DNA from: Haloplanus sp. CK5-1
GTDB lineage: Archaea; Halobacteriota; Halobacteria; Halobacteriales; Haloferacaceae
DNA: 64,000 bases
Direction: 5' to 3'
Assembly: GCF_037201915.1 (NCBI RefSeq)
Contig: NZ_CP147505.1
Location: forward strand, 124,001-188,000
A model generated the notes under the pieces. It ran no database searches, had not been told where the DNA came from, and saw nothing but the letters and a program-made list of their open reading frames with translations. Below, piece by piece: positions 38,456 to 55,508 of the stretch; position 1 is the first letter of the stretch; the number at the start of each line of letters is the position of its first letter. Both the position numbers and the translations under genes were made by a program.

Positions 38456-38563
38456 GTTTTGCGTTGTTGTCTGCATCGGCAATCCAGAGTCATTCTTTCA
38501 TGCCGGATTTGTGGTCTGGCACTGCGCCAACCACGGGTAGGGGTACTCAAAGGATACCGTGGG

Positions 38564-39471: not shown

Positions 39472-39633
39472 ACAGATCTGATACTGTCCAATCTACATAA
39501 TCTCTCCCCAGTGTGAACACCGTTCATACTGTGAAACCATAACAACTCTGATATGTTTTAACAAATAGTACTGAGCGTGTCATAGAAGAGTTCACATGGC
39601 TCGCTGAATCAGCTTAGACAAATTGAAACCGTC

Positions 39634-39648
39634 GTGCACTTGGTGCAC
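39634..39648. repeat. GTGCAC-N3-GTGCAC palindrome upstream of RHH copy 2
   Basis: GTGCACTTGGTGCAC, the equivalent of 6792-6806, located 22 bp before the start codon at 39671. Confidence 0.6.
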
Positions 39649-39670
39649 GCTGTTCTTAGATGTTTTAGCT

Positions 39671-39871
39671 ATGGCAAAAGAAAAGTTCGGAGTCGCTGTT
39701 GACGAGGAAATCGTGCGAGAAGTGGATGAACTGGTCGCTGAGTGTGACGACCTCGGAGCCAGCCGCTCCGAGACCGTCGAAGCCATCCTCACAGCGTTCG
39801 TTCACTCCGAGACGAACCACGCTGAACGGGTGCGAGAAATCATTATTCGGAGACGAAAGGGAAATCTCTGA
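39671..39871 (+). CDS. ribbon-helix-helix protein of the 404-bp element, copy 2
   Basis: 66 aa, identical to the protein encoded at 6569-6769. Palindromes GTGCAC-N3-GTGCAC at 39634-39648 and 39887-39901 bracket it as in copy 1. Confidence 0.7.
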   Translation: MAKEKFGVAVDEEIVREVDELVAECDDLGASRSETVEAILTAFVHSETNHAERVREIIIRRRKGNL

Positions 39872-39886
39872 CTGGTTTTGAACTCC

Positions 39887-39901
39887 GTGCACTGAGTGCA
39901 C
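39887..39901. repeat. GTGCAC-N3-GTGCAC palindrome downstream of RHH copy 2
   Basis: GTGCACTGAGTGCAC, the equivalent of 6539-6553, located 15 bp after the stop codon at 39871. Confidence 0.6.
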
Positions 39902-40047
39902 GTACTTCTAAGCTAATAACCCACTATAATAGTAATCAAACTGACTATAGTGTGTGAAGAGTTCTATGACACGCTCAATAGTACTCGGAATATTGGCTCA
40001 TCGGGCCGCTGCCGGGCCCGAGTACCCCTACCCGCTCGGGAGGGAAG

Positions 40048-40057
40048 ACAGGTGATT
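40048..40057. other. possible left attachment core of the 40-55 kb element
   Basis: ACAGGTGATT occurs here, 45 bp before the first gene of the element, and again at 55260-55269, 52 bp after the integrase. A 10-bp match between two such windows could be chance (of order one in a hundred). Confidence 0.25.
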
Positions 40058-40101
40058 TCGGACGAACTCGCCCCAAAAGGGCACGACGGGAGGGTCGCCC
40101 G

Positions 40102-40218
40102 ATGAGCAGCGGCGACTGGGAGAGCTACCAGCATCACGACGCTGGCAAGCAGGCCCACGAAGGCCGGCTCAGAACTGCACTCCGGCGGATCAGCGAGCGA
40201 GTGCGGGGTGATAGATGA
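40102..40218 (+). CDS. short basic protein, first gene of the 40-55 kb element
   Basis: 38 aa (MSSGDWESYQHHDAGKQ start, ending SERVRGDR). It is too short to classify. It is supported by the ATGA overlap with the next gene (40215-40218), which begins a series of more than ten such overlaps. Confidence 0.5.
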   Translation: MSSGDWESYQHHDAGKQAHEGRLRTALRRISERVRGDR

Positions 40219-40442
40219 GCAGTAGCTATCGCCACACGGTCTTCAGCGCCGCGAAAGAGCGCTGGCCGCTGGGCAGCCTCGGCACCGGCTTGCTGGGGGT
40301 CTACGTCGCGATCATCCCGGCGGTCGGACTCGCGCCGGCCGGCGACCTCCTGATCGTCGTGCTCGCGTCACTGTTGGTGATCGCGAGCACGCATCTCGCG
40401 CGGGCCGAAGGCCGGCGCGCGTACCTGGAGGCCGAGCGATGA
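40215..40442 (+). CDS. small two-helix membrane protein
   Basis: 75 aa. GTGLLGVYVAIIPAVGLA and DLLIVVLASLLVIASTHLA are two transmembrane helices joined by a short turn, with basic ends. It overlaps both neighbours by ATGA. Size and topology would suit a small virion membrane protein; this is inference. Confidence 0.65.
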   Translation: MSSSYRHTVFSAAKERWPLGSLGTGLLGVYVAIIPAVGLAPAGDLLIVVLASLLVIASTHLARAEGRRAYLEAER

Positions 40443-40597
40443 CGCGGCGTAACGGCGAGGTAGCGGTCAAGCGGGACGGCCACGTGCACGCAGTCGCCGC
40501 GCCGGAACTCTCCGGGCCGATCAACGTCGACGTCGACGCACTGCTGTTGCGGAAACGGGGCGGTTGGGGCACCCGGCTCGAGGAGGTCCCAGAGTGA
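40439..40597 (+). CDS. short soluble protein
   Basis: 52 aa, MTRRNGEVAVKRDGHVHAVA and on to TRLEEVPE. It shares ATGA with the previous gene and GTGA with the next. Unknown. Confidence 0.5.
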   Translation: MTRRNGEVAVKRDGHVHAVAAPELSGPINVDVDALLLRKRGGWGTRLEEVPE

Positions 40598-41157
40598 TCG
40601 TCAGCGCATCGGTGTTCCTTGGAGCTCTCGTCGCCGGAATGGCGCTCAAGATGCGCCTGTCTTCACCTATCGATCGGGTGTTCGATTTCATAGACAGAGC
40701 GTTCACGGCGCGCTATCCAGCTTGGGGTGGCTTGACCGCCTTCAGCACGCTGGCGTTCCTGTGGATGGGAGTTTACGTGCTCCCTCCAGATGGCGGGGGC
40801 GCTGTCATCGATCTGCTGTGGATCGTGATGTTGGTAGCGATCCCACTGGCCGCCTACGGCGCATCCTCTGCGTTCGTCGAGATCGGAGTCGGCTGGGTCA
40901 GGCAAACCGGGATGTCGGTCTGCGGGGCGTACCTGAGCCTCGTTGCCCACGTCGCTTGGGTGTTCAACGCGGGTTGGACGCCGTCGTTGACTGATCCCGC
41001 AAGTCGGCAACTCATCCTCGATTCGGGTGCCTTCGTGTGGTATAGTCTCGCGCTCGCCTTCGCCTCGATCGTCGTGGTCGCCGGCGGTGGCGGAGCGCTT
41101 GACCGCGCGGTCACCGCCTTTCAGCGCGCAACGGGCCGCCAGGAGGCTGTGCCGTGA
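40594..41157 (+). CDS. membrane protein with about five helices
   Basis: 187 aa from GTG 40594, overlapping the stop of the previous gene as GTGA. Hydrophobic stretches include SASVFLGALVAGMAL, LTAFSTLAFLWMGVYVL, VIDLLWIVMLVAIPLAAYG, MSVCGAYLSLVAHVAWVF and LALAFASIVVVAGGGG. No transporter signature is visible. Unknown role. Confidence 0.6.
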   Translation: MIVSASVFLGALVAGMALKMRLSSPIDRVFDFIDRAFTARYPAWGGLTAFSTLAFLWMGVYVLPPDGGGAVIDLLWIVMLVAIPLAAYGASSAFVEIGVGWVRQTGMSVCGAYLSLVAHVAWVFNAGWTPSLTDPASRQLILDSGAFVWYSLALAFASIVVVAGGGGALDRAVTAFQRATGRQEAVP

Positions 41158-41300
41158 CCGGGCCGACCGGCATCGCCGTCTCGGACGCGTTCGCGGACTA
41201 CCTCGAGGACCTCCGCCGGACGGTCCACTTCCCGCGCTGTGCATCGCTCAGACAGAATAGGGGCACGCCCAGCCCGAACCCGGGCTTCAGACTTTCATGA
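41154..41300 (+). CDS. short ORF bridging to the first secreted protein
   Basis: 48 aa from GTG 41154, overlapping the previous stop (GTGA) and sharing ATGA with the next start. The second half is Pro/Arg-rich and resembles untranslated sequence, so it may be chance. Listed because both junctions fit the local pattern. Confidence 0.3.
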   Translation: MTGPTGIAVSDAFADYLEDLRRTVHFPRCASLRQNRGTPSPNPGFRLS

Positions 41301-42799
41301 ACACTACGAAACTCAAAGCAGTGCTGTTCGCCGCCATCATGGTCACGTCCGTGTTCGCGGGCGTGATGGGTGCGGCGACGGCCCAAAGCGACACACCGGA
41401 CGCACCGGGCGTCCAGACTGAAGGTACCGTCACGATCGACTCTCACAACACGACCTGGGACTCCCCACTCCACTACGAGAACGATAACGGGGAGGTCGTC
41501 GCACTTGACGGCCACGTCAACGCCTCGCAGGACAACCCCTATCGGTTCGACGTCTCGCACGTCGAGTTCGGGGACGCCGACGAGTTCCCGCACAGTGATG
41601 CGGACATCTCGTGGTACAACGAGTCCCGATGGACGGTCGGCGGATCGGCCTCCGCGAAGGGCTCGGTCGCCGAGACGACCACCGAGGGTACGCCCGCTCT
41701 CGAGGTCGCGACCGACGACTCGATGACCTCGGGCGACACCGTCCAGGTCACGTTCGACGACGTCGACATCAGCAGCGACGTCCAAAAGAAGCACCTCGCA
41801 ACGGCGCTGAACGTGCCGGCGCTCGACTCGGGCGCTGAAGTGCAGATCCGCGCCGAGGAAGCGGACGGCGACTACGTGCGCGCTGTGATCAACTCCTCCG
41901 CATCGGGCGAGGACACGATCGCGAACTCGACGGGCGACGGCCGGCTCTACCAGCGTCAGATGGGTCAGATGACGGTTTACGGCACTGGTGACGGCACGCT
42001 CTCGAACATCGACTCGGTGACCGTCCAGATCACCGACGCCGACGCGACTGTCGAGATGACGATGCTGAATCTCGACAAGATGGGGACGTACACCTACGGT
42101 GAGACTCGCGAGGACACCGACGACGATGATGAACTCGAGACGACCCAGATCACCGAGCGCAAGGACGCGGGCGCGGTCGAAGTCCACTCGCTCGACACGC
42201 TGGGCGACTCGATCCGCGGCTCGAGCGGCGCGACGGTCCACGGCCTCACGATGGACGTCATCAAAGAGGTCGAGGACGTCGACCCGGACGACATCGAGTA
42301 CAACCTAACGGAGACCGACGACCGACCGGGCTACCACGGCACGGCGACGCTGTGGATCCCGACCGGCGTCGAGTCCGCGTACGAACTCGGCTGGACGGGC
42401 CTCTCGACGACGGCCGAGCAGGCCTACCTCGAGGACCGCTACCTCGCCGTCGAGTACGCTGAGGGTGTCGGTGACACGAACCCGCAGGACGTCGGCTCCT
42501 GGACGGATCAGACTGGCATGTTCAGCGAAGAGGGCACGGTCCACTCGATCGACGACACGATCCAGCCGGGCCAGACCAACTACGTGCGCGTCTCGCTACG
42601 GCTCCAAGAGAGCGAGTTCAACACGCTCCGGAACACGCTGGAGTCGCTCGGAGAGGACGTTGAGGGCGGCGTCGGCATGGGGCCCGGTAGCGGAGGCGGC
42701 GGTCCGATCAGCTTCGTCCAGGGCGTCTTCGGTTCGATCGTCGCAGTCGTGGCCGGACTGTTCGCCAAGGCTCGAGGCTGGATTCCGGGGATGGGGTAA
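41297..42799 (+). CDS. secreted, C-terminally membrane-anchored protein (spike-like candidate)
   Basis: 500 aa. A signal peptide (KLKAVLFAAIMVTSVFAGV, cleavage near AATAQS) is followed by a Thr/Asp-rich extracellular domain with several N-x-S/T sequons and a C-terminal Gly-rich linker and helix (FVQGVFGSIVAVVAGLFA). Size and topology match spike proteins of haloarchaeal pleomorphic viruses, but I recognise no sequence homologue. Confidence 0.7.
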   Translation: MNTTKLKAVLFAAIMVTSVFAGVMGAATAQSDTPDAPGVQTEGTVTIDSHNTTWDSPLHYENDNGEVVALDGHVNASQDNPYRFDVSHVEFGDADEFPHSDADISWYNESRWTVGGSASAKGSVAETTTEGTPALEVATDDSMTSGDTVQVTFDDVDISSDVQKKHLATALNVPALDSGAEVQIRAEEADGDYVRAVINSSASGEDTIANSTGDGRLYQRQMGQMTVYGTGDGTLSNIDSVTVQITDADATVEMTMLNLDKMGTYTYGETREDTDDDDELETTQITERKDAGAVEVHSLDTLGDSIRGSSGATVHGLTMDVIKEVEDVDPDDIEYNLTETDDRPGYHGTATLWIPTGVESAYELGWTGLSTTAEQAYLEDRYLAVEYAEGVGDTNPQDVGSWTDQTGMFSEEGTVHSIDDTIQPGQTNYVRVSLRLQESEFNTLRNTLESLGEDVEGGVGMGPGSGGGGPISFVQGVFGSIVAVVAGLFAKARGWIPGMG

Positions 42800-42802
42800 C
42801 GG

Positions 42803-43252
42803 ATGTCCGCCTCTGGCCCCGGAAAGTGGTCGAGCCGCCTTGAGAAGATCGCCAACATCGAGGGCGGCTCGTTGACCAACGTCGTGCCCAAGGCGGCGCT
42901 GCTGCCGATCATCGCGGCGCTGGCGTCGCTCGCAGACTTGGTCGGGGCGGTGCTCGGCATCCCGATCAACATCGCGAGTGCGTTCGGCGAGGGCTTGGCG
43001 TCGGTCGCAACCGCGCTGACCGGCGGGTCCGGGCAGATCCTCCAGGCAGGAGCGACCGAGAGCGCAGAGAGTCTCACCTCTGGCGTGTGGGCGCAGTTCG
43101 GCCCGTTCACGTTCCCGCTCGCGGTCGGAATCATCGCAGTGACAGCCTACATCTTCGCTCAGGGCCGGTCCCAGGAGGAGACGGGGAACTTCTTCTGGTT
43201 TATCCCCGACTTGCCCGGCCCCCTCGGGGCGGAAGAGGAGGACGAGGATTGA
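42803..43252 (+). CDS. membrane protein of the element
   Basis: 149 aa. Two hydrophobic regions (AALLPIIAALASLADLVGAV with a following amphipathic stretch; FTFPLAVGIIAVTAYIF) and an acidic C-terminus. It follows the spike-like gene by 3 bp. Confidence 0.6.
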   Translation: MSASGPGKWSSRLEKIANIEGGSLTNVVPKAALLPIIAALASLADLVGAVLGIPINIASAFGEGLASVATALTGGSGQILQAGATESAESLTSGVWAQFGPFTFPLAVGIIAVTAYIFAQGRSQEETGNFFWFIPDLPGPLGAEEEDED

Positions 43253-43253
43253 G

Positions 43254-43343
43254 ATGGAGTCGTCCTCGCGCGGCCTTCGTGGGGGTAACCTGCGTACCTC
43301 GAAGGGCGACGAGCGACGGCTGCACCGATGGAGGCGCGCGTGA
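43254..43343 (+). CDS. very short basic ORF
   Basis: 29 aa, Arg-rich (LRGGNLRTSKGDERRLHRWR). It starts 1 bp after the previous stop, and its last base is the first base of the next ATG (43343). It may be a leader ORF rather than a functional protein. Confidence 0.3.
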   Translation: MESSSRGLRGGNLRTSKGDERRLHRWRRA

Positions 43344-43705
43344 TGAGCAGCAACGAGGGCGCTGTGACAGACTCAGAGTCACTGACGACGAACAACGGCA
43401 CCTGGATCAACTGGGGCCGGCTCGTGACGGTCGCGATCGGGTTCCTGTCGACTGTGTGGTACTCCAACATCGCGCAAGTAGTCGGTTCGGTAATCGCGGT
43501 GCCGGTCAACCTCGCTCGATCGATTGGAGACCAGGCCGGACGCGTTACCGAGCAGTTCGTCTCGACGATTCCAGTTGGGTTGCGAGCCTCGTTCCAGCCG
43601 GCCGCGGATACGATCGGTTCGTTGGGCGCATTCGCACTGCCGGCGGCGGTCTTGGTTGTCACGCTGGTCGCGTACGTCGTCGCACGGGGGTTAAACGATG
43701 GCTGA
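43343..43705 (+). CDS. membrane protein of the element
   Basis: 120 aa. WGRLVTVAIGFLSTVWYSNI and ALPAAVLVVTLVAYVVARGL are two hydrophobic helices separated by an amphipathic region (AQVVGSVIAVPVNLARSIG). The start could instead be ATG 43328 (MEARV). The end overlaps the next gene by 8 bp. Confidence 0.6.
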   Translation: MSSNEGAVTDSESLTTNNGTWINWGRLVTVAIGFLSTVWYSNIAQVVGSVIAVPVNLARSIGDQAGRVTEQFVSTIPVGLRASFQPAADTIGSLGAFALPAAVLVVTLVAYVVARGLNDG

Positions 43706-44243
43706 GGACGGTGGTGGTGGCGGCTTCTCTCGCGATGACCTCGAGTCGTTGCTTCCGGATTTCATCTTCTACGATTCGGTGGCACGACTTGGCGAGCAGG
43801 TCAGAAACGCCGGCGGCCCGGTCCGCTGGGTCCGCCAGCGGATCGTCGAGTACGTCCTCGGCGCCGTGGCGGCGCTCATCTTCGGCGTCGCCGATGTCAT
43901 CGACCAAATGTGGGGAATCGTCATCATGGCGATCGATCAGGCCGGCGCCGCAGTCCCTCAGAGCGTCCAGTCAGCCGGCACCGGTCTCGTTGTGGTCATC
44001 GGCGACTTCCACACTGCAGTCGTGGGCGTCGCGACGGTCGCCGGTCCAGCGAGCCCGATCATCGTGGTCGGCATCTACGCCGTCACGTTGTCGCTCGTCT
44101 TCATCGCTCTTCGAGCGGCGGCCCCTGCACTCACGGACCTCTTGGGATCGGTCCCGGTCATCGGGAGCGTCCTTGACGCGCTGCTCACGTTCGCGATCCA
44201 ACTGTCCGACCGCGTGGTCGCGTTCCTCGGAGGTGACGGATAA
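43698..44243 (+). CDS. membrane protein of the element
   Basis: 181 aa. Hydrophobic stretches YVLGAVAALIFGVADVI, VVVIGDFHTAVVGVATVAG and IIVVGIYAVTLSLVFIALRA are followed by an amphipathic C-terminus. It overlaps both neighbours. Unknown. Confidence 0.6.
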   Translation: MAEDGGGGGFSRDDLESLLPDFIFYDSVARLGEQVRNAGGPVRWVRQRIVEYVLGAVAALIFGVADVIDQMWGIVIMAIDQAGAAVPQSVQSAGTGLVVVIGDFHTAVVGVATVAGPASPIIVVGIYAVTLSLVFIALRAAAPALTDLLGSVPVIGSVLDALLTFAIQLSDRVVAFLGGDG

Positions 44244-44557
44244 TGGCTGAACTGTCGCTGCGAGAGGTCGTCGGCCATCCCGCCTCGAAGGCAACAGCGG
44301 TGGTCGGACTCCTCGGTGGGTTGCTCAACCTGCCGGTCCTGGGAGCGATCTGGGCCGGCCTGTGGACGCAACTCCCGACGGTGTTCACGGTCACGAGCAT
44401 TTTCGGGTTCACGGTCGCGCCGGAGTTGAGCTTCATCCCGACCCAAACGGCGAAGGTCGTCGCGCTGCTGGTCGCTGGGCTGTACGTCCTCAAAAAGCTC
44501 CTCGACGTGCTTCGCGGCGTGCGAACACGCATCAACGACGCGGGTTCAAACACATGA
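44243..44557 (+). CDS. small membrane protein of the element
   Basis: 104 aa with two or three hydrophobic helices (ATAVVGLLGGLLNLPVLGAI, AKVVALLVAGLYVLKKLL) and a basic C-terminus (RGVRTRIND). Small two-helix proteins of this type form the shell of spindle-shaped and pleomorphic archaeal viruses; no homology is claimed. Confidence 0.6.
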   Translation: MAELSLREVVGHPASKATAVVGLLGGLLNLPVLGAIWAGLWTQLPTVFTVTSIFGFTVAPELSFIPTQTAKVVALLVAGLYVLKKLLDVLRGVRTRINDAGSNT

Positions 44558-44625
44558 CACAGAGACACATCCGACTGAATCGAGTCGAATCGACTGCTGA
44601 CCACTTTGCGAGGGGCGGCCGATGA
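44554..44625 (+). CDS. very short ORF linking two membrane genes
   Basis: 23 aa (MTQRHIRLNRVESTADHFAR). It shares ATGA with both the preceding and the following gene. It could be a coupling ORF. Low confidence that the peptide itself matters. Confidence 0.3.
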   Translation: MTQRHIRLNRVESTADHFARGGR

Positions 44626-45101
44626 TGGGCGTGTCGCTCCAGCCGCTCCAGGCGGGCACGGCGATCGCCCCCATCGCGGAGTACTGGACGTACGCCGTCG
44701 GCTTCCTCGTGTTCGGTATGCTGATGTACTGGACGTTCGACGAGCGAGATCAGACTGAATCGATCGCCGAGACGGTCGAGGCGGTCGGCGAGCGCTCCCG
44801 CACCGCGACTGGCGGCCTCGTCGGCGCGCTGGGCTCGCTCGTCGTCGTCATCGTCTCGATCGGCATCACGATCGGCCAGGAACTCGTGATGAGTTTGAAC
44901 GAGATCGCGCCGTTCATCATGGAGGCCCCGGCGATCACGGGCCAGATCATCATCGCGGGACTGGCACTACTGAACTTGGAGGGCTACGTCCCGCTGGAAC
45001 CGTGGCAAGCGGGCACGATCTTCCTCGGCATCGTCCTGGTCACGTCGCTCTGGAAGTACACGTCGGTCCTCGAGCAGGAGCGTGGTTCGAGTGTCCTCTG
45101 A
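44622..45101 (+). CDS. four-helix membrane protein of the element
   Basis: 159 aa. Hydrophobic segments EYWTYAVGFLVFGMLMYWTF, GGLVGALGSLVVVIVSIGIT, IMEAPAITGQIIIAGLALL and GTIFLGIVLVTSLW make about four helices, the topology of the internal membrane proteins (VP3-like) of pleolipoviruses. The similarity is of topology and place, ahead of a large spike-like gene; it is not sequence homology I can confirm. It starts at 44622 or the next ATG at 44625. Confidence 0.65.
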   Translation: MMGVSLQPLQAGTAIAPIAEYWTYAVGFLVFGMLMYWTFDERDQTESIAETVEAVGERSRTATGGLVGALGSLVVVIVSIGITIGQELVMSLNEIAPFIMEAPAITGQIIIAGLALLNLEGYVPLEPWQAGTIFLGIVLVTSLWKYTSVLEQERGSSVL

Positions 45102-45351
45102 CTCGGATCGTGAGACTCGGTCCGTGCCGGCCGACTGGCGGCGGTCCGCGTGGGGGCTGTTCTTGGCTCTCCTCGGGGCGTCGTTCGTCGTCGTGACGGT
45201 GCCGGTGCTGACGCCGACGGCAGCGCAGCTGATCGGCGGTGGGTTGCTGATCGGCCTCGGGATGGGCCTGACGGACCACGTCATCGAGCGCGAACACGAA
45301 CGACTGGCGACTCGCATCCGCAACTGGATCAAGCACGATTCGAGGGCGTAA
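45082..45351 (+). CDS. small two-helix membrane protein
   Basis: 89 aa from GTG 45082, overlapping the previous gene by 20 bp. WGLFLALLGASFVVVTVPVL and AQLIGGGLLIGLGMGLT are helices, and the C-terminus is charged (DHVIEREHERLATRIRN). Confidence 0.55.
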   Translation: MVRVSSDSDRETRSVPADWRRSAWGLFLALLGASFVVVTVPVLTPTAAQLIGGGLLIGLGMGLTDHVIEREHERLATRIRNWIKHDSRA

Positions 45352-45375
45352 CCCCCGATTCGCATCTTTCAGTAC

Positions 45376-48009
45376 ATGAAACGGATACTCAGCGTCTTGT
45401 TGGTGATCGTCCTCGTGGTGTCGTCGAGCGGCAGCGTCGCCGTAGCTCAGACCGATATTCCGGCGGGCATGGTCGGCGTGCCGGACGCCAACGTCAGCGA
45501 GGACGTCCCGCTGGACTCCTCGCCGGCGCTGCGCGGATCTGACTTGGAGGGCTCGGTCATGGCCTCGGACCATGCGGAGTCGCTTGAGGTGATCGTAACG
45601 ACGCCAGACCGCGCCTCGGACTATCTCAACACCTCGACAGAACTCACTGGCTCGAACGGCATCTCGCTCATCCTCCAGGACGACGTCCACAGTGCTGGGC
45701 GTGAGGTCGCGATCGACGCCGGCGCGGTCCGTGACGCACTGGGATACACGCCCGAGCGCCTGTACGGAACACACGAGGACGGCGAGCAGTGGTCGCGGGC
45801 CATCGAGTACCAAGGCGGGATGCTGATCTTCGAGGTGCCGCACTTCTCGAGCAACTCGGTCACGTTCAGCTCGGAGATCTCGATCTCCGGGACATACACG
45901 ACCGGATCGAGTGTCAGTTACGACGTCTCATCGCTGGATTCGGTCGACAACTTCAGCGTTGAGTTCACCGGGATGTCGACAACCGAGACAGACACGTTCA
46001 GCGTTCCTGAAGACGGCTCCTCGTCAGACCCAATAGCGGGTGAGGAAATCCCATCGTCCGCGGCTGTCGACATCTCGTGGGATACCCAAGGAATCGACAA
46101 GAACAGCGGTCCCACAATGGACCCCAGCGACAACACCTATTCAGTGACCTATTCCGGTGTGACGGACCCGGGACAGGTTCAATCGACATTCGCGGCGACC
46201 GTCGCAGGGTCGTTCGACTTCCGCGTGATCGACCGATCCGACGGGAGTGTGATGGGCGAAAAGACGTACACGAGTGGGACCTCGACGACCGCGACGTTCG
46301 ACTTTTCGAGCCAAACAACACCAGACGGAATCAAGTTAGTATGGGACAACTCCGATAACGATTATAAAATAGATATTCAGGGTCACGAGGTAGAGAAGTT
46401 ACCTCCGGACAGTGTCGACGCTACTGTCGATGGATCAACCAAGACGTGGACGTCTGAAGGGTCTAAAACGATCAGTCTGAACAACGACGAGACAGTCGAT
46501 GCGTCGACGTCAATCTCCGGGGGCGGCAGTGGCGTGTCGACAACAGTTAGCTACCAAGAGACGAGTTACTCTGAGAACCCGACGGTCGAGGTGAACGGCG
46601 ACATAACGAGTTACTCCGGAACGCTGGCTCCTGGAGAGACAGCGACGGTAACCCCTCCGGCAGATGCGGTCCAAGAATCGAACATCGTGAACGTGTCGCT
46701 GGCAGACACGACAGATGCTCCGGATCGCGCTGTCGAGATGGACTATCGACACACCGCCCAAGACGAGCAAATAGTGGAATATGAAGGGACGAAGTGGACC
46801 GAAGGCTACAACTTCTCGAAGACGTTCGCCTCGGACCGCTCGGCGGCCAGCTTGACCATCCCCTTCGAAAACGAGGTCGTCGAAATCGAGTCGATCGAGA
46901 CGCGGACCAACGGCGGGCCGTGGACATCCGTCTCCGAGGACAACTACGACCTCAACAACACGGAGCTGACGGTGCATTTCGGCGCGGTCAACGGCGGTGA
47001 CGAGGTCGCCGTTCGGACGACCGGCCAGCAGGTCGTTTCGGTCAACTCCACGATCACGGTCCTCGACCCGACTGCGCCCGGGGATCGACTCGACAGCAAG
47101 GTCCGTATCGACGAGTGGAACGACAACTCGTCGATCTCAGTCGGTCGGACTGAAGATTCCGGCCGGATTCACTACACGTACCAGAAGTCGTGGGATGGCG
47201 CCGATGACTACGTCGAGATCACGGACGACGGAACGCAGCAACTCTACCTTCCGGGCGCGGGCGAACTCTCGGACTTCAGAGTCCGCACGGTACCGGTCCG
47301 CGCCAACGCCCGCTCGGGCGAGGTCGAGATCTCGGTGCAGAACCCCTCGACGACCGAGCCGTCGTTCTACGTTTCGCCGGGAGCCACGCAGAACGACGAC
47401 GTCGAGTACACGCTGCTCACGGCATCCGACGGCGAGGAGTACATCCTCAGAAGCGAGACGAACAACGTCGTCCACGACTCGGCCGAGGCAAGTTCGCCGG
47501 TGACGCTCGTCGACGACGACTCCGAGGAGCTCCTGGTCATCGAGCAGGACTCGACGACCGCCTCCGAAGATGACGGCCCGTCGATGGTTGGGATCGGCCC
47601 GGCGCAGATCGGCACGGACTCGCCGCTGAACTCGGTGCCGGTGATCCTGCTGGTCGGCGCGGGGATACTCGTCGCGCTGGCAGTGATCTACCGCCGCCTC
47701 GGCTGGTCGATCCGCGACGCGACGGGGCCGGTGCCGGTCGACCCGGTCTTCGCACTCGCTGCGGGCCTGATCGCGTTCGTCGTGATCGACTACGTCGGCG
47801 GGGGCGTCCTCACCAGCGCCCTCGCGACGAACATCGAGCAGATCGGGAGCGGGATCAGCCAGATCGTCCCGCTGCTCGGCATCGGCGGCGCCGCGCTCCT
47901 GGGGTACTGGCTCTATCAGAACTACATCCTTGGGAACAGCGGCGGCGGTGGCAGCGACGACGACTCGTCGCGAACTATCGTCATCCGGGATGGAGGCGGT
48001 AACGAATGA
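45376..48009 (+). CDS. large secreted protein with three C-terminal membrane helices
   Basis: 877 aa. A signal peptide (RILSVLLVIVLVVSSSGSVA, cleavage near AQTDIP) leads a long Ser/Thr/Asp-rich beta-type ectodomain. The C-terminus has NSVPVILLVGAGILVALAVI, DPVFALAAGLIAFVVIDYVG and ISQIVPLLGIGGAALLGYWL, then a Gly/Ser tail. It is probably a surface or virion protein. It is the second large exported protein of the element. It overlaps the next gene by ATGA. Confidence 0.7.
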   Translation: MKRILSVLLVIVLVVSSSGSVAVAQTDIPAGMVGVPDANVSEDVPLDSSPALRGSDLEGSVMASDHAESLEVIVTTPDRASDYLNTSTELTGSNGISLILQDDVHSAGREVAIDAGAVRDALGYTPERLYGTHEDGEQWSRAIEYQGGMLIFEVPHFSSNSVTFSSEISISGTYTTGSSVSYDVSSLDSVDNFSVEFTGMSTTETDTFSVPEDGSSSDPIAGEEIPSSAAVDISWDTQGIDKNSGPTMDPSDNTYSVTYSGVTDPGQVQSTFAATVAGSFDFRVIDRSDGSVMGEKTYTSGTSTTATFDFSSQTTPDGIKLVWDNSDNDYKIDIQGHEVEKLPPDSVDATVDGSTKTWTSEGSKTISLNNDETVDASTSISGGGSGVSTTVSYQETSYSENPTVEVNGDITSYSGTLAPGETATVTPPADAVQESNIVNVSLADTTDAPDRAVEMDYRHTAQDEQIVEYEGTKWTEGYNFSKTFASDRSAASLTIPFENEVVEIESIETRTNGGPWTSVSEDNYDLNNTELTVHFGAVNGGDEVAVRTTGQQVVSVNSTITVLDPTAPGDRLDSKVRIDEWNDNSSISVGRTEDSGRIHYTYQKSWDGADDYVEITDDGTQQLYLPGAGELSDFRVRTVPVRANARSGEVEISVQNPSTTEPSFYVSPGATQNDDVEYTLLTASDGEEYILRSETNNVVHDSAEASSPVTLVDDDSEELLVIEQDSTTASEDDGPSMVGIGPAQIGTDSPLNSVPVILLVGAGILVALAVIYRRLGWSIRDATGPVPVDPVFALAAGLIAFVVIDYVGGGVLTSALATNIEQIGSGISQIVPLLGIGGAALLGYWLYQNYILGNSGGGGSDDDSSRTIVIRDGGGNE

Positions 48010-49763
48010 GCGGGCGCGTGCGTCTCCTGCTGGCCGCGCTCATCGTCGTCTCGATGATCGCTGTCCCGTTCGCCGCGATGGGACAGAGCGGCGGAGAGGC
48101 GGGCACAACGCCCTCCGCTGACGAGTACTCCCTCTCGGAACTCCAGAACGGGGGCGAGGTCGTGGACGAGCGCTACCCTTCGCTACGGACTGCCGGCGAC
48201 TACACGGCGTTCTGGATGGTCCGCTACCCACCGCGCGGGATGGGGAGCTACGGGGATCGGGGCAGTCAGCAGTTCATCGAGCCGTCCTCGACCGTCCAGC
48301 GTCAGAAGGTCCGGATGTACGCCTCGTTCCCGTTCGACGGCGAGACGCGAAACTTCACGGTGACGAAGGTCTACTGGACGCGGGACTCCAAGACGGTCCA
48401 GACCGACAACGGGACGACGACTGAGTCGGTCGCGAACATCTCGGCGATCGACCAGCAAACACTCCAGTACCAAAGCGGGATGCGCCGGACACAGGAGGTC
48501 TCGCTCCGGGGCTACTACGACCAGGCGACGCGTGTGACGGTCTTCCTCGGCCTCCCGGACGGCGACCGCCTGCGGTGGACGTTCAACATCAAGACGATCC
48601 CGACGGCTGAGCCGGTCTCGATCGACTCGCGGGGTGACCTCTACGAGTTCATCCTGCTGTTCGTGATCCTACCGACCCTCTTGGTCGTGTGGCTCGTCGA
48701 CAAGAAGGTCTCTGCGTTCCGTCGGAGCGCACTGGCGGGGACCGGCCACGGACCGGGATTCTGGATCGCGATCGGGACCGTGATGGCGGCGGTCGCCTAC
48801 ACCACGGGCTACTACGCGACCGCCTCGCTGACCGCCGCGCTCCCGTTCGTCTTCCCGCTGCTGGTCGGCTGGGTCGTCGGGGCGTTCCGCCTCGAGGACG
48901 ACGATGACGCAGTCGAAACGTGGGGGTTCGTCAAGATGGACCCCGAGACCGCGGCCTCGCCGCTCAAGGAGAAAGCGGAGATCCTCGACTCCGCGGAGAT
49001 CGAGGTCCGTGGGTTCGACGTCGTCCACACGCCGGAGGACAAGCCCGCGCTGTACTCCAAGGGCCTGCTGTCGATGTGGGCGCGTTCGAAGGGGAAGTAC
49101 GCGACCATCGACATCGAGAACAAGGAGGCCGAGTGGGAGGGCGTCGGCGACTACGACAAGATCATAGTCGTCGACCAGGACGCGCCGGACCTCGTGGAAC
49201 ATCTCCCGGAGCGCGTCATCTGGAAGTTCCCGTGGCGGACCTACACGCCGCCGACCGACGAAGACGGGGACATCATCGAAGACGCGCACGACGCGGCGCT
49301 GTTCCGTGCGCTCCCGCAGGAACTCGACAAGAGCACGTACATCGGCATCGCGGGCATGGTCCTCACGCCGATCGCGGCGGCGTTCCTCTCCCACGAGTTC
49401 GTCGGCGCGTGGCAGTGGGGACCGATCGCGTGCGCGCCGCTGATCCTCCGCTACGCCGAGCCGATCGAGGGCGAAGCGCGGGCGTACGCGGCACCGGGAC
49501 AGGCCCGCAAGGCCTGGACGACCGCGTGGTACGCCGACATCAATATGAAGCGTTTCGCGACGATCGACCAGCTGGCGAAGGCACTGCTCGAGAGCGAGGA
49601 GCGCAAGTACAACGTCGAGGAGTGGCTCAACGAGTTCCGCGAGGAGGGCGTCATCGACTCGGCGAACGACAGCGACTCGGACCCGTTTGACTACGTCATG
49701 TCGGAGGATGATCCGGCGACGACGGCCAAGAACGGGACGTCTAACGACACGGGGGCGGACTGA
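48006..49763 (+). CDS. membrane protein with large extracellular and cytoplasmic parts
   Basis: 585 aa. A signal-like start (RLLLAALIVVSMIAVPFAAM) and an extracellular domain (about 30-205) are followed by helices YEFILLFVILPTLLVVWLVD, IAIGTVMAAVAYTTGYYATA and TAALPFVFPLLVGWVVGAF. A cytoplasmic region then runs to the acidic tail (DSDSDPFDYVMSEDD), with one more hydrophobic segment near 425 (YIGIAGMVLTPIAAAFL). No known family. Confidence 0.65.
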   Translation: MSGRVRLLLAALIVVSMIAVPFAAMGQSGGEAGTTPSADEYSLSELQNGGEVVDERYPSLRTAGDYTAFWMVRYPPRGMGSYGDRGSQQFIEPSSTVQRQKVRMYASFPFDGETRNFTVTKVYWTRDSKTVQTDNGTTTESVANISAIDQQTLQYQSGMRRTQEVSLRGYYDQATRVTVFLGLPDGDRLRWTFNIKTIPTAEPVSIDSRGDLYEFILLFVILPTLLVVWLVDKKVSAFRRSALAGTGHGPGFWIAIGTVMAAVAYTTGYYATASLTAALPFVFPLLVGWVVGAFRLEDDDDAVETWGFVKMDPETAASPLKEKAEILDSAEIEVRGFDVVHTPEDKPALYSKGLLSMWARSKGKYATIDIENKEAEWEGVGDYDKIIVVDQDAPDLVEHLPERVIWKFPWRTYTPPTDEDGDIIEDAHDAALFRALPQELDKSTYIGIAGMVLTPIAAAFLSHEFVGAWQWGPIACAPLILRYAEPIEGEARAYAAPGQARKAWTTAWYADINMKRFATIDQLAKALLESEERKYNVEEWLNEFREEGVIDSANDSDSDPFDYVMSEDDPATTAKNGTSNDTGAD

Positions 49764-50557
49764 TGTCGGCCGATCATCCCCCGGACTCGCGGCCGAACTT
49801 CGGCCGCCCGGCCCTCGAGAATCTCGAGGATGCCCACGACGTCCTGATCGCAGAGCTTCGTGACGGCTTCGCCGATCTCGACGCGGTGATCCACTGGCAT
49901 CGGCGGCTGGCTGTCCGGACGCTTGGCTGTCTCGACGGCGGGTTCTACGCCGACCTCCGCACGGAGGGGAAGGTCTGGGCGGCGCTCATCACCTCAGGCG
50001 AGCGCGAGAAGTTCCTCACCTCTGCCGACGCGATCAGCGAGGAGAGCGCCCTCGAGACGCGCCTGGACTACGAGGCGACGTTCGTCCTCCCGGCCACCGA
50101 GATGGCCTTTCGGTCGCTCCGGAAGAGCGCGGCCGAGTACTTCGGCGAGGATCGCGACGAGACGGTCACCGTCGCCGGTGAGGAGTTCCATGCGATGCGG
50201 CCGGCGCTCTCGCACCTAGAGGAGCGCCAGGAGGCGATGCTCGACGATCTCCTCGACGGCGTCGACGGCGGGCGCTCGGGGCTCCTCGACTGGCTGCGGG
50301 ACCTGAACGGCGCAACGTTCGGGCAGATCCATCCGCGATTCCAGTCGCAGGCCTACAAGGAAAGCGACGTCCTCCGGCGCGTCCTCCTCGACGAGTACCA
50401 CGACGACGCGGCGGCCAAGCGGACGCGCCAGCGCCTCGCGTTTGCGTACCTGCTCCCCGCGTTCAACGCGGGCGTCCGTACGCTCGTCGGGAAGGCCGGC
50501 GAGGACACTGGTATCGACGAACAGCTGGGTGCGACCATGGAGAGTCTGAAAGCATGA
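49763..50557 (+). CDS. soluble helical protein upstream of the ATPase
   Basis: 264 aa, mostly helical, without membrane helices. LENLEDAHDVLIAELRDGFA begins the core. It lies between the membrane protein and the ATPase. Pleolipoviruses have a ~280-residue protein of unknown role at the equivalent place (ORF7-like); the likeness is positional only. Confidence 0.6.
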   Translation: MSADHPPDSRPNFGRPALENLEDAHDVLIAELRDGFADLDAVIHWHRRLAVRTLGCLDGGFYADLRTEGKVWAALITSGEREKFLTSADAISEESALETRLDYEATFVLPATEMAFRSLRKSAAEYFGEDRDETVTVAGEEFHAMRPALSHLEERQEAMLDDLLDGVDGGRSGLLDWLRDLNGATFGQIHPRFQSQAYKESDVLRRVLLDEYHDDAAAKRTRQRLAFAYLLPAFNAGVRTLVGKAGEDTGIDEQLGATMESLKA

Positions 50558-51729
50558 GTACGCAGAACCAATTCGAACCGACGAAAGAGGCGGTCTTAGC
50601 AGCGTTCCCCGACCAACACACCGAGAGCCGGCAGTACACCGGCGACGACCGACGTCACGACGACGCGACCGACATGAAGCGTCGACACAGCATCCCCGAG
50701 GTCAACTGGGAGGCACAGTGGTCACGGGCCGAGGCTGCGCACAAAGACTACGCAGAGGCCGGGGAACGAAAGTGGAAGAAGAAGCTCCTTCCCAACATCA
50801 TCCGCCACGAGTACGAACCGTCCGAGTCGGGGATGTCGGACGGTGGGACCGACCTGCTCTCGGTCGGCGAACCGGGCTCTGGGAAGTCGAACTTCGCTCT
50901 CTGGCTCTCCCAGCGTCTGATGAGCGAAAACAACGAGAAGGTCGTCTGGCGCGCCTCGACGTCCCGGTCGGAGTGGCTCCCGTTCGCGCCCTGGGCGCGC
51001 GTCTGCTTGCCCAAGGGCGTGGACGTCCGCGCGGAGTTCGTCCCGAAGAATCCGACTCAGGAGGGCTTCGAAGTGGACCTCGAGGACGTCGTCCGCGAGG
51101 TCGTCCGGTACAACGACGTCGTCGACCTCAACAAGCGGGTGCTAAAGCCCGGCGTGTTCCACGTCGTGTACCCCGATCCGCGGATGCGAGGCTGCCAGTG
51201 GGTCTACGAGCAAGACCCCGAAAAGCAGTACGACGGCCTCGAGTTCTCGACAGAGGATCCGATCAACCACTGGTGGTTCGGCTGGATGCACGCCCGCGTC
51301 TCGCAGGGACCGCATCACTTCTCGTCGGTGATGTTCGACGAGATCGGCGACATCGCGCCGGAATCCGCCTCGAAAGACGAGTTCGCCCACTACCAGAAGG
51401 TCGAACTCCTGAAGGACTGCTGGGTCGACGCCCGCAAGTACGGCCACTCGATCTTCGCGTTCGGGCACTCCGAGACCGACATTCACTCGATGATCCGGCG
51501 GAAGATCCGGTGGCGCGCGACGATGGCCGGCTCGACGAACCCCACCAAAGCCGGTGGCATCGTTGGCTTCGGGAAGGTCCCGATGAACCACGACCTCATG
51601 TCGAGCCGTGACATCGGTGACGTCCTGATCTACAACGAAGGCGAGTTCCAGTTCCCACCGCTCAACACGACGCACATCGAGTCACCGACCTCGATGACAC
51701 TGAAGGTGGCCTACCAGGAGGGAGCATGA
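50554..51729 (+). CDS. P-loop ATPase of the element
   Basis: 391 aa. Walker A GEPGSGKSNFALWLSQ (about 108-123) and Walker B FSSVMFDEIGDIAPES (about 256-271) are clear. The C-terminal part has FAFGHSETDIHSMIRRKIRW and GKVPMNHDLMSSRDIGDVLI, and the shape resembles FtsK/HerA- or VirB4-like packaging or secretion ATPases. Its size fits the putative NTPase of pleolipoviruses (VP8-like). It could load DNA or power vesicle formation. Family not established. Confidence 0.75.
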   Translation: MSTQNQFEPTKEAVLAAFPDQHTESRQYTGDDRRHDDATDMKRRHSIPEVNWEAQWSRAEAAHKDYAEAGERKWKKKLLPNIIRHEYEPSESGMSDGGTDLLSVGEPGSGKSNFALWLSQRLMSENNEKVVWRASTSRSEWLPFAPWARVCLPKGVDVRAEFVPKNPTQEGFEVDLEDVVREVVRYNDVVDLNKRVLKPGVFHVVYPDPRMRGCQWVYEQDPEKQYDGLEFSTEDPINHWWFGWMHARVSQGPHHFSSVMFDEIGDIAPESASKDEFAHYQKVELLKDCWVDARKYGHSIFAFGHSETDIHSMIRRKIRWRATMAGSTNPTKAGGIVGFGKVPMNHDLMSSRDIGDVLIYNEGEFQFPPLNTTHIESPTSMTLKVAYQEGA

Positions 51730-51941
51730 TCGACGCGACCGCCGGGGTGGGAGGCGTCAGTTCGATGTTCCAGCGTGCCGGCTCAGTCCGGCGTGTCTTC
51801 GCTTCGTTTTCGACGCCGAGACCCACGGGGTGGTGGGTCGGAAACAGCCAGAGACGGCGATCCGCGGCGGATCTACAGATCTTTTCGCACGCGCGTAGTA
51901 CAGGAGAGGTAAAAATTATCCCCGGGGGAAGGGAGCGATGA
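51726..51941 (+). CDS. doubtful short ORF or intergenic region
   Basis: 71 aa, Ser/Arg-rich and low in hydrophobic pattern (SVRRVFASFSTPRPTG). It shares ATGA with both neighbours, but the region also holds AT-rich GTAAAAATTATCCCC, which looks like a promoter for the next genes. Probably not a real protein. Confidence 0.3.
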   Translation: MIDATAGVGGVSSMFQRAGSVRRVFASFSTPRPTGWWVGNSQRRRSAADLQIFSHARSTGEVKIIPGGRER

Positions 51942-52276
51942 CCAGTTCTGTTGCGCTCGCGTTGAATCCCTACGAGATCATCTCGGGACTACTGCGCGAC
52001 GTCGTCGGGTGGCTCCTCAACGCCGCCGGCATCGAGGGCGTCGCGACCGGAGCGGTCATCATCGCGATCGTCTGGCTCTGGTGGGGCTACAAGTTGAGCG
52101 CACTCGCGAGCGCCGGGCGCACGCTGGGCGCGACGATCGCGCAGCACGCGGTCGTGTCGGCCGCGGTCGCGGCCGCAGTACTGTGCGGACTCCTGTACGC
52201 GGGCGTCATCCCGGGTGTGGACATGCAGGCCGCGGGTGCGCTCGTCTCGGGCGCGCTCGAGGTGGTTCCATGGTAG
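51938..52276 (+). CDS. small membrane protein of the element
   Basis: 112 aa. GVATGAVIIAIVWLWWGYKL and VVSAAVAAAVLCGLLYAGVI are transmembrane helices with an amphipathic N-terminus (YEIISGLLRDVVGWLLNAAG). A typical size for a small virion membrane protein; identity unknown. Confidence 0.6.
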   Translation: MTSSVALALNPYEIISGLLRDVVGWLLNAAGIEGVATGAVIIAIVWLWWGYKLSALASAGRTLGATIAQHAVVSAAVAAAVLCGLLYAGVIPGVDMQAAGALVSGALEVVPW

Positions 52277-52539
52277 ACCTTGAGACCATTCTCCACGAGG
52301 AGTACGAGAGCGACGGTGGACTCGTCCTCTTCCGGTGTGCGGAGTGTGGATACACGTCGCTCAGTCTCGGCGGGACGCACGGCCACATCGAAAAACATCG
52401 GGGATACACCCGCTTCGGCATCAAGATCCCGTTCACCAAGACCTCGATGGGCAACTGGAGCGAGTTGATGAAGCGAACCGAGGTGTTACTCGTCGAGGAC
52501 ACGAGCGAGATCAGCCTCGAGGAGGTCGAAGGACTGTGA
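52270..52539 (+). CDS. small C2H2-type zinc-finger protein
   Basis: 89 aa. FRCAECGYTSLSLGGTHGHI...EKH (CxxC...HxxxxH) is a zinc finger in an otherwise basic domain, then an acidic tail. It overlaps the previous gene by 7 bp and the MCM start by 4. Likely DNA-binding. Confidence 0.65.
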   Translation: MVDLETILHEEYESDGGLVLFRCAECGYTSLSLGGTHGHIEKHRGYTRFGIKIPFTKTSMGNWSELMKRTEVLLVEDTSEISLEEVEGL

Positions 52540-54335
52540 ACGCCGTCGCCGAGGAGGATGTCGACGGCGAGTACCACGTCGGCGAGACGTACGCCAGCCG
52601 CGTCGGCACGGGCGACACGGTCGCGGTCACCGGCCAGATCACCAAGCGGACGACCATCGATGCGAAGCTCCTCGTCGGCGTCTGGGAGTGTCGCGACTGC
52701 CGTCGTCGCGAACGTGTGCAACAGGCGTTCTGGGACATCACCCCACCGATGTACTGCGACTCGTGCGAGAAGAAGTCGGTCCACTGGGTTCCCCGGAAGA
52801 ACCGGTGGCAGTACGGCGACTACCGGAAGCTCCGCCTGAAGCCGCTCCCCGAGGAGATGGACGACGACCGCGAACACATCGACGCGCATCTGACGGGCGC
52901 GCTCGCCCGGCGCGACCTCGAGGCCGGCGACCAGGTCACGGTCGTCGCTGAGTTCGAGCGCTACCACGAGCAGGGCAAGACCGTCGCGACCGACGTCCTC
53001 GATGCGGAGGCGGTGTTCGTCGACGACGACTCACTCGACGAGGACGACCTCGCGGCCTACCGCGAGCAGCTGGACGAGATCGCCGCCGCCGAGGATCCGA
53101 TCCCGACGCTCGTCGACTCTGTCGCGACCGATCACTTCGGCGACCAGCATCTCAAGGAGGCGCTCCTCCTCCTGTTGGTTCGTGGCAACGACGCCGCGTC
53201 GATGCGGGGGACGATCCACATGATGTTGCTGGGCGATCCTGGCACCGGGAAGACCGACTTCGGCGAGGCCCTCGTCGAACTCGCTCCACGCGGGAAGAAG
53301 GCCTCCGGCAACTCCGGGACCAGCGCGGCCGGCCTCACGGCGGCGATCACCCGCGACGACTTCTCCGACTCGGAGTTCACGATCAGCGCGGGAGCGATCC
53401 CGCAGTGCTCCGGCGGCGCCGTCTTCATCGACGAACTCGACAGCGCCGACGAGACCGATCAGGAGGCGATGCTCGAGGCGATGGAGTCACAGGTGATCAA
53501 CATCCAGAAGGCCGGGCGGGAGGCTACACTGGAGGCGTCGACAGCCGTCCTCTCCGGCGCGAATCCCGAGGACGGGAACTTCCGGGAGGACGAACCGCCC
53601 CACCAGCAGACGAACGTGCCGTCGCCGCTGCTGACCCGCTTCGACCTGATGTTCGTGACCCGGGAGCGTGAGGAGCGCGAGGAGATCGCCAACATCGCCG
53701 GCCACATCATCGACAACCACGACGTCGAGATCCGCGACCAGCGCGGCCTCGACGTCGACGACTCGCTGCGGGAGAGCGTCGAACCTGAGGTCGAGGAGGA
53801 CGTCCTCCGGGCCTACCTCGCGGCCGCGCGTCAATTGGAGCCGGTATTCGCGAGTCAGGAGGTGAAGGATGTGCTGGAAACGTGGTACGTCGAGACGAAG
53901 ACGCGCATCATCGCCGAGGAGGATCGAGAGTTCCCCGTGACGCCCCGCAGCGCCCAGGACCTGATCCGGCTGGCCGAGGCCTCCGCGAAGCTGCGTCACT
54001 CCGAGACGGTCGACCTCGTCGACGCCGAGCGGGCGACGCGCCTGAAGGGGCGCTCGTTCCGCGAACTCGGGCTGGAGACGCCGGCGATGGAGGTCGAGAC
54101 CGACGAGGACGGAAACCTCGTCGCCGATCACGCCGAGACGCCGACCGCCGCGGTGACCGAGGCCGTCGAGGAGCTGAAGATGCAGTCCAGCGAGTACGGC
54201 GCCGATCCCGAAGCGGTGGCGGTCGCCGCTGCGGAAACGTCCGACCTCTCCGTCCGGGAGGCCGAGGCGCTCGTCGAGGACATGATCGAGGCCGGCACCC
54301 TCAGCGAGGTCGGTGGCGGCCGACTCACCGCGTAG
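52536..54335 (+). CDS. mcm: divergent MCM replicative helicase
   Basis: 599 aa from GTG 52536. The N-terminal domain has a zinc site (Cys52, Cys55, Cys74, Cys77). The AAA core has Walker A LGDPGTGKTDFGEAL (about 232), GNSGTSAAGLTAAITRDDF, Walker B FIDELDSADETDQE (about 297) and SPLLTRFDLMF near the arginine finger. Walker A (GTGKT for the usual GTAKS) and the FDKM signature (read LDSA) differ from chromosomal MCM. Mobile elements often carry their own MCM, so it likely replicates this element. Confidence 0.88.
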   Translation: MNAVAEEDVDGEYHVGETYASRVGTGDTVAVTGQITKRTTIDAKLLVGVWECRDCRRRERVQQAFWDITPPMYCDSCEKKSVHWVPRKNRWQYGDYRKLRLKPLPEEMDDDREHIDAHLTGALARRDLEAGDQVTVVAEFERYHEQGKTVATDVLDAEAVFVDDDSLDEDDLAAYREQLDEIAAAEDPIPTLVDSVATDHFGDQHLKEALLLLLVRGNDAASMRGTIHMMLLGDPGTGKTDFGEALVELAPRGKKASGNSGTSAAGLTAAITRDDFSDSEFTISAGAIPQCSGGAVFIDELDSADETDQEAMLEAMESQVINIQKAGREATLEASTAVLSGANPEDGNFREDEPPHQQTNVPSPLLTRFDLMFVTREREEREEIANIAGHIIDNHDVEIRDQRGLDVDDSLRESVEPEVEEDVLRAYLAAARQLEPVFASQEVKDVLETWYVETKTRIIAEEDREFPVTPRSAQDLIRLAEASAKLRHSETVDLVDAERATRLKGRSFRELGLETPAMEVETDEDGNLVADHAETPTAAVTEAVEELKMQSSEYGADPEAVAVAAAETSDLSVREAEALVEDMIEAGTLSEVGGGRLTA

Positions 54336-54602
54336 GCGACTTCTGCAGGCCGGTTTCGGACGTTCTACCCACAGTGAGAGCGGTCAGACTACCGATCCAG
54401 ATGAGAGAACGATCGTCGTCGCCGTCAGAGCACCGCTCAGAACAGTAGTAAATTCTATGTCGCTATATTAATTCCGTGGCGATGTCTCTAATTTCGTGTT
54501 TGTACAGAAACGCGCAACTATTCGGCCCATAGCCGCTCCAGACCGGCCGCGACCGCCGCCGTGCGAACCACTAAGTTGCGTGATACTCAAAATTAACGCG
54601 TA
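54336..54602. other. gene-free stretch before the integrase
   Basis: 266 bp with no coding frame I trust. AT-rich TCGCTATATTAATTCCG near 54450 and CTCAAAATTAACGCG just upstream of the integrase could be promoter elements. Downstream end of the long polycistron. Confidence 0.4.
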
Positions 54603-55208
54603 ATGCGTAGCGAGCGTAACAAGGACGGCACCTGGAACGTCTGGATGAGTCGCGACGAGTACCACGAACTCCCCCGGTCCGCGTCGTCGTTCCAGCGGGA
54701 GATCGCGATCCGGTTGATGGGCGACTGCGGTCTCCGCGTCGCCGAGACGCTCGACGTCGCTCCCGAGCACGTCACGCGGACGAAGGACGGCCGCCATCAT
54801 CAGCTCGAGGTCATCTCGGGGAAGGACACCACCGGCGAGTACCAGGGCGGGAAGTATCGCGAGACGTGGCTCCCCCGTGACGTCGAGGTGCTGCTGGCGC
54901 GCTACGAACAGGAGAACGGCCTCGGTCCGGGAGATCCCTTCATCGATGTGAAAAAGCGGCAGGTCCAGAACTGGGTGAACGACGCCGCCGCCAGCGCTGC
55001 CGAGGAGACCGGTGACGACGACTACCGGAAGATCTCGACGCACGACCTCCGCCGCTGCTGGGCGAACCACCTGCTCGTCGAGGAGAACGTCTCCCCGCGG
55101 ATCGTGATGGCCCTCGGTGGGTGGAGTTCCTACGACGCCATCGAGCCGTACCTGGCAGCGCCGACCGAGGAGAATATCATCCAGTCGATGAGCCAGGTGT
55201 CGCTCTGA
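54603..55208 (+). CDS. minimal tyrosine recombinase (integrase)
   Basis: 201 aa. All catalytic motifs are present: R45 in CGLRVAETL, a basic strand VISGKDTTGEYQGGKYRETW, H147 and R150 in STHDLRRCW, W in MALGGWSSYDA, and Y183 in EPYLAAP. It lacks the usual large N-terminal arm-binding domain. Small integrases of this kind are seen in haloarchaeal proviruses such as SNJ2-like elements. It ends the 40-55 kb element. Confidence 0.85.
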   Translation: MRSERNKDGTWNVWMSRDEYHELPRSASSFQREIAIRLMGDCGLRVAETLDVAPEHVTRTKDGRHHQLEVISGKDTTGEYQGGKYRETWLPRDVEVLLARYEQENGLGPGDPFIDVKKRQVQNWVNDAAASAAEETGDDDYRKISTHDLRRCWANHLLVEENVSPRIVMALGGWSSYDAIEPYLAAPTEENIIQSMSQVSL

Positions 55209-55259
55209 CAGCCCGGACTGCTTACTTCAAGCGCGCGCGTTTAGGGACGGTCGTCGAGA

Positions 55260-55269
55260 ACAGGTGATT
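55260..55269. other. possible right attachment core
   Basis: ACAGGTGATT, matching 40048-40057; see there. About 15.2 kb separates the two. The rest of 55209-55506 shows no gene. Confidence 0.25.
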
Positions 55270-55491
55270 CTGATCGGTGCTACCTTCGAGTTATGTGTTT
55301 TGTTGAAAATTATTAGCAACTAACACAATCTGGGTGCTGAATACAGAAGGTGTATCCAGTAGAACAGATTCAGATTAGAGTCTATTTTGATGCCCATGAG
55401 TATGAGATTCGCTCCAGAAGATCGACATCGGAGAGGACGCAGCAATCTCAGTTGACTCGGGCTACAAAAAATCGAATTCGGACTGCTCTGT

Positions 55492-55508
55492 GACCGCTTC
55501 CGGCGGTC
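55492..55508 (-). terminator. stem-loop terminator of the beta-helix gene
   Basis: GACCGC and GCGGTC pair around TTCCG, overlapping the stop codon region at 55507. The reverse strand continues to a T-run (GATTTTTTG). Same stem as at 35484-35500. Confidence 0.6.

Follow-up and report, generated by a model that had tools for sequence, protein, structure and literature searches.

A widespread haloarchaeal mobile element family with a candidate membrane-particle module, integrated in the genome of Haloplanus sp. CK5-1

The haloarchaeon Haloplanus sp. CK5-1 has a genome of 3.24 Mb in one contig; the window is the whole 64,000-nucleotide stretch of it that was analyzed (bases 124001-188000). The gene run at 40102 to 55208 of the window is very probably an integrated member of a mobile element family that is widespread among haloarchaea, and very unlikely to be an ordinary chromosomal operon. 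Its core is a module of ten genes that we term g06, g07, g08, g09, g10, g12, g15, g16, g17, and g14, which include genes for surface proteins, small membrane proteins, and an ATPase. From these genes we infer particle formation, packaging, and receptor binding, and we consider it fairly probable that the membrane-particle elements of this kind, either virus-like or plasmid-vesicle-like, form a family apart that has apparently not been described. A bolder version is that this is a third, independent lineage of archaeal capsidless membrane-particle elements beside the pleolipoviruses and the pR1SE-like plasmids. Such a lineage would be a new family of viruses, whose morphogenesis module is its own and whose replication genes can be exchanged. 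We put this version forward tentatively, as something that could well be true rather than as our expectation.

An earlier sequence-only reading of this DNA had recognized no close relative of the element, but the same module turns out to be common. The ATPase (g17) was found in 32 of 148 genomes of the same family (E < 1e-6) and, by a profile search, in 69 of 391 Halobacteria genomes (~18%), which represent at least six families. Eight to ten of the module genes recur as a syntenic block. The order g06, g07, g08, g09, g10, g12, g15, g16, g17, g14 is repeated at 21 loci in the same family, with g06 homologues in all 21, and a further gene, g19, comes after g14 in about half of them. (In a few loci, including the window, g14 precedes g15; in most relatives it follows the ATPase gene.) There are 34 module loci in named genomes (Haloarcula, Halorubrum, Halobellus, Haloferax, Halorhabdus, Natronomonas, Halorussus, and others), among which g15, g16, and g17 are near-universal and g06 is present in 28. 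Several loci have an integrase of the same type as the window's upstream of the module. In Halorhabdus salina, the integrase next to the module and that of the window share 74% identity. Within the genus, the module is patchy (5 of 12 congeneric genomes).

Two sets of records need separate comment. In Halobaculum litoreum (G113, loci L107-L110, at contig ends), the module lies inside a ~28.9-kb unit that is tandemly repeated across contig ends, which would reflect either tandem integration or a circular element that was assembled into the chromosome. Also, a 26.6-kb contig titled Rhizobium sp. S152 (L088) carries a haloarchaeal copy of the module under a bacterial name, and is probably a contaminated assembly.

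The element family is mobile, with free circular forms. In the congener G083, a complete 16,546-bp contig (G083:C3) carries the module, and the gene order continues across the contig ends. It matches the integrated copy in another congener, G090, at 79-91% DNA identity, and the alignment is collinear over the contig junction. Because of these two observations, we take G083:C3 to be a circle; it is largely filled by the module and a replication protein (Rep). In G090, a 16-bp repeat of the 3' end of tRNA-Ala(CGC) flanks a 24.5-kb stretch that includes the module. For the other tRNA-adjacent relatives, a search of the available sequence for simple repeats of tRNA ends found none. The circular plasmid pNG300 of Haloarcula marismortui matches g07 (several times), g09, g10, g15, g16, the ATPase, g14, and the window's MCM helicase, with no recognizable g06; it also carries ParA and a GINS-like gene (PMC3972481). 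The ATPase is also on pNG100 and pNG400 of the same species, and pNG400 has the integrase as well. The literature that we searched treats pNG100-pNG400 only as cryptic plasmids and does not remark on the module on pNG300 or its company of an MCM and a GINS-like gene. More generally, the module is not described in the open-access literature searched.

The replication genes are less constant than the module. The window's MCM is distinct from the host MCM (G000:C1:19463-22306, ~33% identity), whose gene is interrupted as if by an intein. The replication gene of G083:C3 instead encodes a 578-aa protein with DUF7845 and a winged helix, not an MCM; this Rep matches phrog_15150 and also the PHROG of the betapleolipovirus replicases (6e-18). 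In Halosegnis marinus, the module lies beside both an MCM and a family-B polymerase (PolB), and many module loci have no MCM match near the module. Since relatives use a DUF7845 Rep or an MCM with PolB, the replication gene appears to be exchangeable. The earlier proposal that the element is replicated by MCM rather than by a Rep or PolB therefore describes the window copy and fails as a trait of the family. An MCM is also common in haloviruses (BJ1, Humcor1, HFTV1, HSTV-1), and 20 of 41 pR1SE-like plasmids of the apHPV group have one near their core (PMC10818511). However, those haloviruses, like the archaeal virus STIV2, are capsid or tailed viruses, and their structural genes are absent from the window element.

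In the window, 40102-54335 is filled by 22 plus-strand genes. When open reading frames (ORFs) and junctions were recomputed, 13 of the 21 gene junctions had an overlap of exactly 4 bp, and the widest gap was 24 bp. All of the ORFs in this copy are open. Hydrophobic segments were scored with a simple Kyte-Doolittle hydropathy scan, which gives nine small operon proteins with one to four such segments (starts at 40215, 40594, 42803, 43343, 43698, 44243, 44622, 45082, and 51938). The features are as follows.

40102..41300, plus strand: leader genes (38, 75, 52, 187, and 48 aa), five small genes of which two encode membrane proteins; mostly lineage-specific, with the 52- and 48-aa genes recurring
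41297..42799, plus strand: g06, 500 aa; ectodomain rich in beta structure, with a CBM11-like sandwich, between a signal peptide and a C-terminal anchor; the conserved module starts here
42803..43252, plus strand: g07, 149-aa membrane protein; conserved
43343..43705, plus strand: g08, 120-aa membrane protein; paralogue of g07
43698..44243, plus strand: g09, 181 aa; four hydrophobic segments; conserved
44243..44557, plus strand: g10, 104-aa membrane protein; conserved
44622..45101, plus strand: g12, 159-aa membrane protein; conserved
45082..45351, plus strand: g13, 89-aa membrane protein; a search of the relatives gave no homologue
45376..48009, plus strand: g14, 877-aa surface protein with a signal peptide and two C-terminal hydrophobic segments; spike candidate; conserved in most loci
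48006..49763, plus strand: g15, 585 aa; signal peptide, ectodomain, internal transmembrane (TM) segments, cytoplasmic domain; core
49763..50557, plus strand: g16, 264-aa soluble protein; core, present in 34 of 34 named loci
50554..51729, plus strand: g17, 391-aa HerA/VirB4/B204-like ATPase with Walker A; core; A1/A7 families, phrog_22963
51938..52276, plus strand: g19, 112-aa membrane protein; shared by roughly half of the loci
52273..52539, plus strand: 88-aa zinc-finger-like protein with the motif CxxC...HxxxH
52536..54335, plus strand: element MCM helicase, divergent (PF00493, 2e-56)
54603..55208, plus strand: 201-aa tyrosine recombinase/integrase (PF00589, Phage_integrase, 6.5e-10) with HxxR and Tyr motifs
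35513..38482, minus strand: S-layer glycoprotein gene (HVO_2072 family; TIGR04216, 2.3e-216); left neighbor, outside the element

The sequence-only reading had described this layout well: its run of more than 20 rightward genes, most overlapping by 4 bp, its roughly nine small membrane proteins, and its two large C-anchored proteins with signal peptides (500 and 877 aa, each with N-terminal and C-terminal hydrophobic segments) were all recovered, as were the P-loop ATPase, the zinc-finger protein, the MCM, and the integrase at 54603. It had also recognized no capsid, portal, terminase, or tail gene. This held when ten proteins of the window, the larger or core ones, were scanned against Pfam and NCBIfam; the scans likewise gave no relaxase, VirB4/VirD4-type, or other type IV secretion system family. 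For the structural proteins, scans against Pfam, PHROGs, and NCBIfam returned nothing convincing, and profile searches against the PDB were uninformative. g14 has no match in the PDB, Pfam, or PHROGs, and PHROGs gave nothing for g06, g14, or g15 save one stray tape-measure match.

Predicted structures say more about g17. Its AlphaFold2 model (predicted local distance difference test score, pLDDT, of 88.4) matches HerA, the packaging NTPase B204 of STIV2, VirB4, and Zot in Foldseek, with a template-modeling (TM) score to B204 of up to 0.72 (target-normalized). Given these matches, the model indicates that g17 is a DNA-translocase-type ATPase, and it might package the element's DNA. phrog_22963 matches 24 of 24 module ATPases (one of them also weakly matches phrog_1979), so at least one relative is already present, uncharacterized, in a viral or proviral protein set. 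The resemblance to Zot raises the question of whether this could be a filamentous, inovirus-like virus that is extruded with a Zot-type ATPase and small coat proteins. A weak Pfam match (0.027) and the Zot N-terminal domain (2r2a) in Foldseek point that way. This seems most unlikely, as HerA and B204 outrank Zot, no TM segment was found in g17 by the hydropathy scan, and an inovirus coat protein would not have the several hydrophobic segments seen in most of the small proteins.

The AlphaFold2 model of g06 (pLDDT 82.8) is all-beta, with a sandwich like those of carbohydrate-binding modules and like part of the HFTV1 turret protein (Foldseek). Because whole-protein TM scores are low, we do not claim a full-length homologue. 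The BFVD fold matches listed for g06 include no pleolipovirus spike.

Could the element be a divergent true member of the Pleolipoviridae or of the pR1SE-like apHPVs? The Pleolipoviridae (HRPV-1, HGPV-1, HHPV3, His2) are similar to it in size range and in their capsidless plan of spike, small membrane proteins, and ATPase, and the Rep of the free relative is related to betapleolipovirus-type Reps. The window's order of large surface protein, membrane protein, 264-aa protein, and ATPase also recalls spike-ORF6-ORF7-ATPase, and g17 shows a weak similarity to the pleolipovirus ORF8-type ATPase (phrog_1979; hhalign 78% over 111 columns). However, the two ATPases fall in different PHROGs (22963 versus 1979), and in most relatives g14 comes after the ATPase. 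Profiles of g06 and g14 reached at most 10% probability against four VP4-type spikes (hhalign), VP3-like, ORF6-like, and ORF7-like proteins reached at most 16%, and the structural proteins of His1 had no profile-profile similarity to the module.

The apHPVs are haloarchaeal plasmids that also integrate and that move in self-encoded plasmid vesicles (PMC10818511). Like the window element, they have a conserved membrane/surface module with a HerA/VirB4/B204-like ATPase, often an MCM, and no capsid genes. Their own core is different: it consists of a ~1100-aa ORF6, an S8 protease, ORF8/9, and ORF17-25, and spans 18-44 kb, whereas the window's module is ~10-13 kb and no S8 protease family was found in the window proteins scanned. 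We made the comparison on pHTUR05, which was chosen by its layout (a large ORF, then an S8 protease). Except for the MCM, its core ORFs gave no convincing hmmsearch or hhalign match to the module; no counterpart of ORF25, the pR1SE ATPase, was identified there. Profile comparison with pleolipovirus, His1, and apHPV proteins, as the sequence-only reading had recommended, thus gives no support for membership beyond the weak ATPase signal and the shared MCM, and we regard membership as very improbable.

A different possibility is that the module is a contact-dependent DNA-transfer apparatus (conjugation-like, or a mating pore) of an integrative plasmid, in which g17 would pump DNA through a channel of small membrane proteins and g06 and g14 would be adhesins. 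g17 is also VirB4-like, and relatives of the ATPase are found on plasmids of up to 414 kb, which is large for a small particle. Conversely, no relaxase, ATPase of VirD4/VirB4 size, or pilin was recognized in the ten scanned proteins, and the 16.5-kb free relative, which is mostly module and Rep, has a virus-like economy. We consider a transfer apparatus unlikely, but it is the alternative that we take most seriously.

The earlier proposal of a capsidless virus or vesicle-forming element stands in that the family is mobile, has no capsid genes, and conserves a module of membrane proteins, surface proteins, and an ATPase with a translocase fold; that it makes particles is what we infer. Several points weigh against our interpretation. 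The proposed particles are read from the genes, and the same module could serve contact-dependent transfer. Pattern scans of IMG/VR (with the ATPase as a single sequence and as a profile, the MCM, and the ATPase of locus L028), whose reach is fairly close relatives, found no contig, although a vesicle or virus should turn up in viromes. (INPHARED, searched by tblastn with g14, the ATPase, and the Rep of locus L028, likewise gave nothing.) As to the window copy, no significant direct repeat was found between its two flanks: the one seen, the 10-mer ACAGGTGATT at 40048 and 55260, is within chance. The ends are therefore only bracketed (left ~38546-40102, right 55208-55506), and 40102 marks the operon's first gene rather than a mapped end. 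Also, a miniature inverted-repeat transposable element (MITE)-like insertion at 39573..39976, with a 65-aa ribbon-helix-helix ORF, lies ~125 bp upstream of the first operon gene. It has the terminal inverted repeat GAGCGTGTCATAG and a 9-bp target duplication, AATAGTACT, and further copies are in the same genome at G000:C1:2124598 and 130464 (both 100%) and at 724162 (83%), with 89% copies in the congener G024. Given the MITE and the lack of demonstrable attachment repeats, the window copy may be stranded, or its transcription may be altered.

The same two features, along with the adjoining S-layer and PGF-CTERM genes, would fit an ordinary chromosomal cell-surface operon or a decayed, passive remnant. 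This is very unlikely given the patchy distribution, the free circular relatives, the integrase, the element's own MCM besides the host's, and the open ORFs. Nor was fixed synteny of the window locus, which would have favored this reading, seen across the genus.

The neighborhood has features of its own. In four of five module-bearing congeneric chromosomes, the module is ~2-20 kb from a copy of the S-layer glycoprotein gene, of which there are few per genome (window 35513-38482; G083:C7:563147; G090:C1:2609827; G062:C1:3196938). This proximity was not seen within the named module loci of other genera. It might reflect an insertion hot spot or a receptor connection. To the right, 55507-58527 encodes a 1006-aa NosD/DUF1565-type surface protein with PGF-CTERM and two long, near-identical internal repeats. 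It is adjoined by an IS630-family transposase in two frames (58682-59757); sequence matching its left end (58638-58700) at 97-100% occurs at six sites in the genome.

If the element does form membrane particles, we propose that the integrase would excise it as a circle, which the exchangeable replication gene (MCM in the window; a DUF7845 Rep or MCM with PolB in relatives) would copy with the polymerases of the host. A patch of the cell membrane would be decorated with protein by the small membrane proteins together with g06 and g14. As it buds off as a membrane particle, the g17 ATPase, with g15 and g16 as its dock, would pump the circle into it. g14, g06, or both would then recognize the next cell; the glycan-binding-like sandwich of g06 could bind the glycosylated S-layer.

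If this is correct, then the virus collections searched miss an element family that is present in ~18% of the haloarchaeal genomes sampled and whose morphogenesis module is unrelated by sequence to the capsidless systems tested. The plan of a membrane vesicle plus a DNA pump would either have arisen repeatedly or have diverged beyond recognition, and plasmids, vesicles, and viruses would be linked by shared replication genes (MCM and the betapleolipovirus-type Rep). The cryptic plasmid pNG300, which is in a culturable strain, would become a direct test case.

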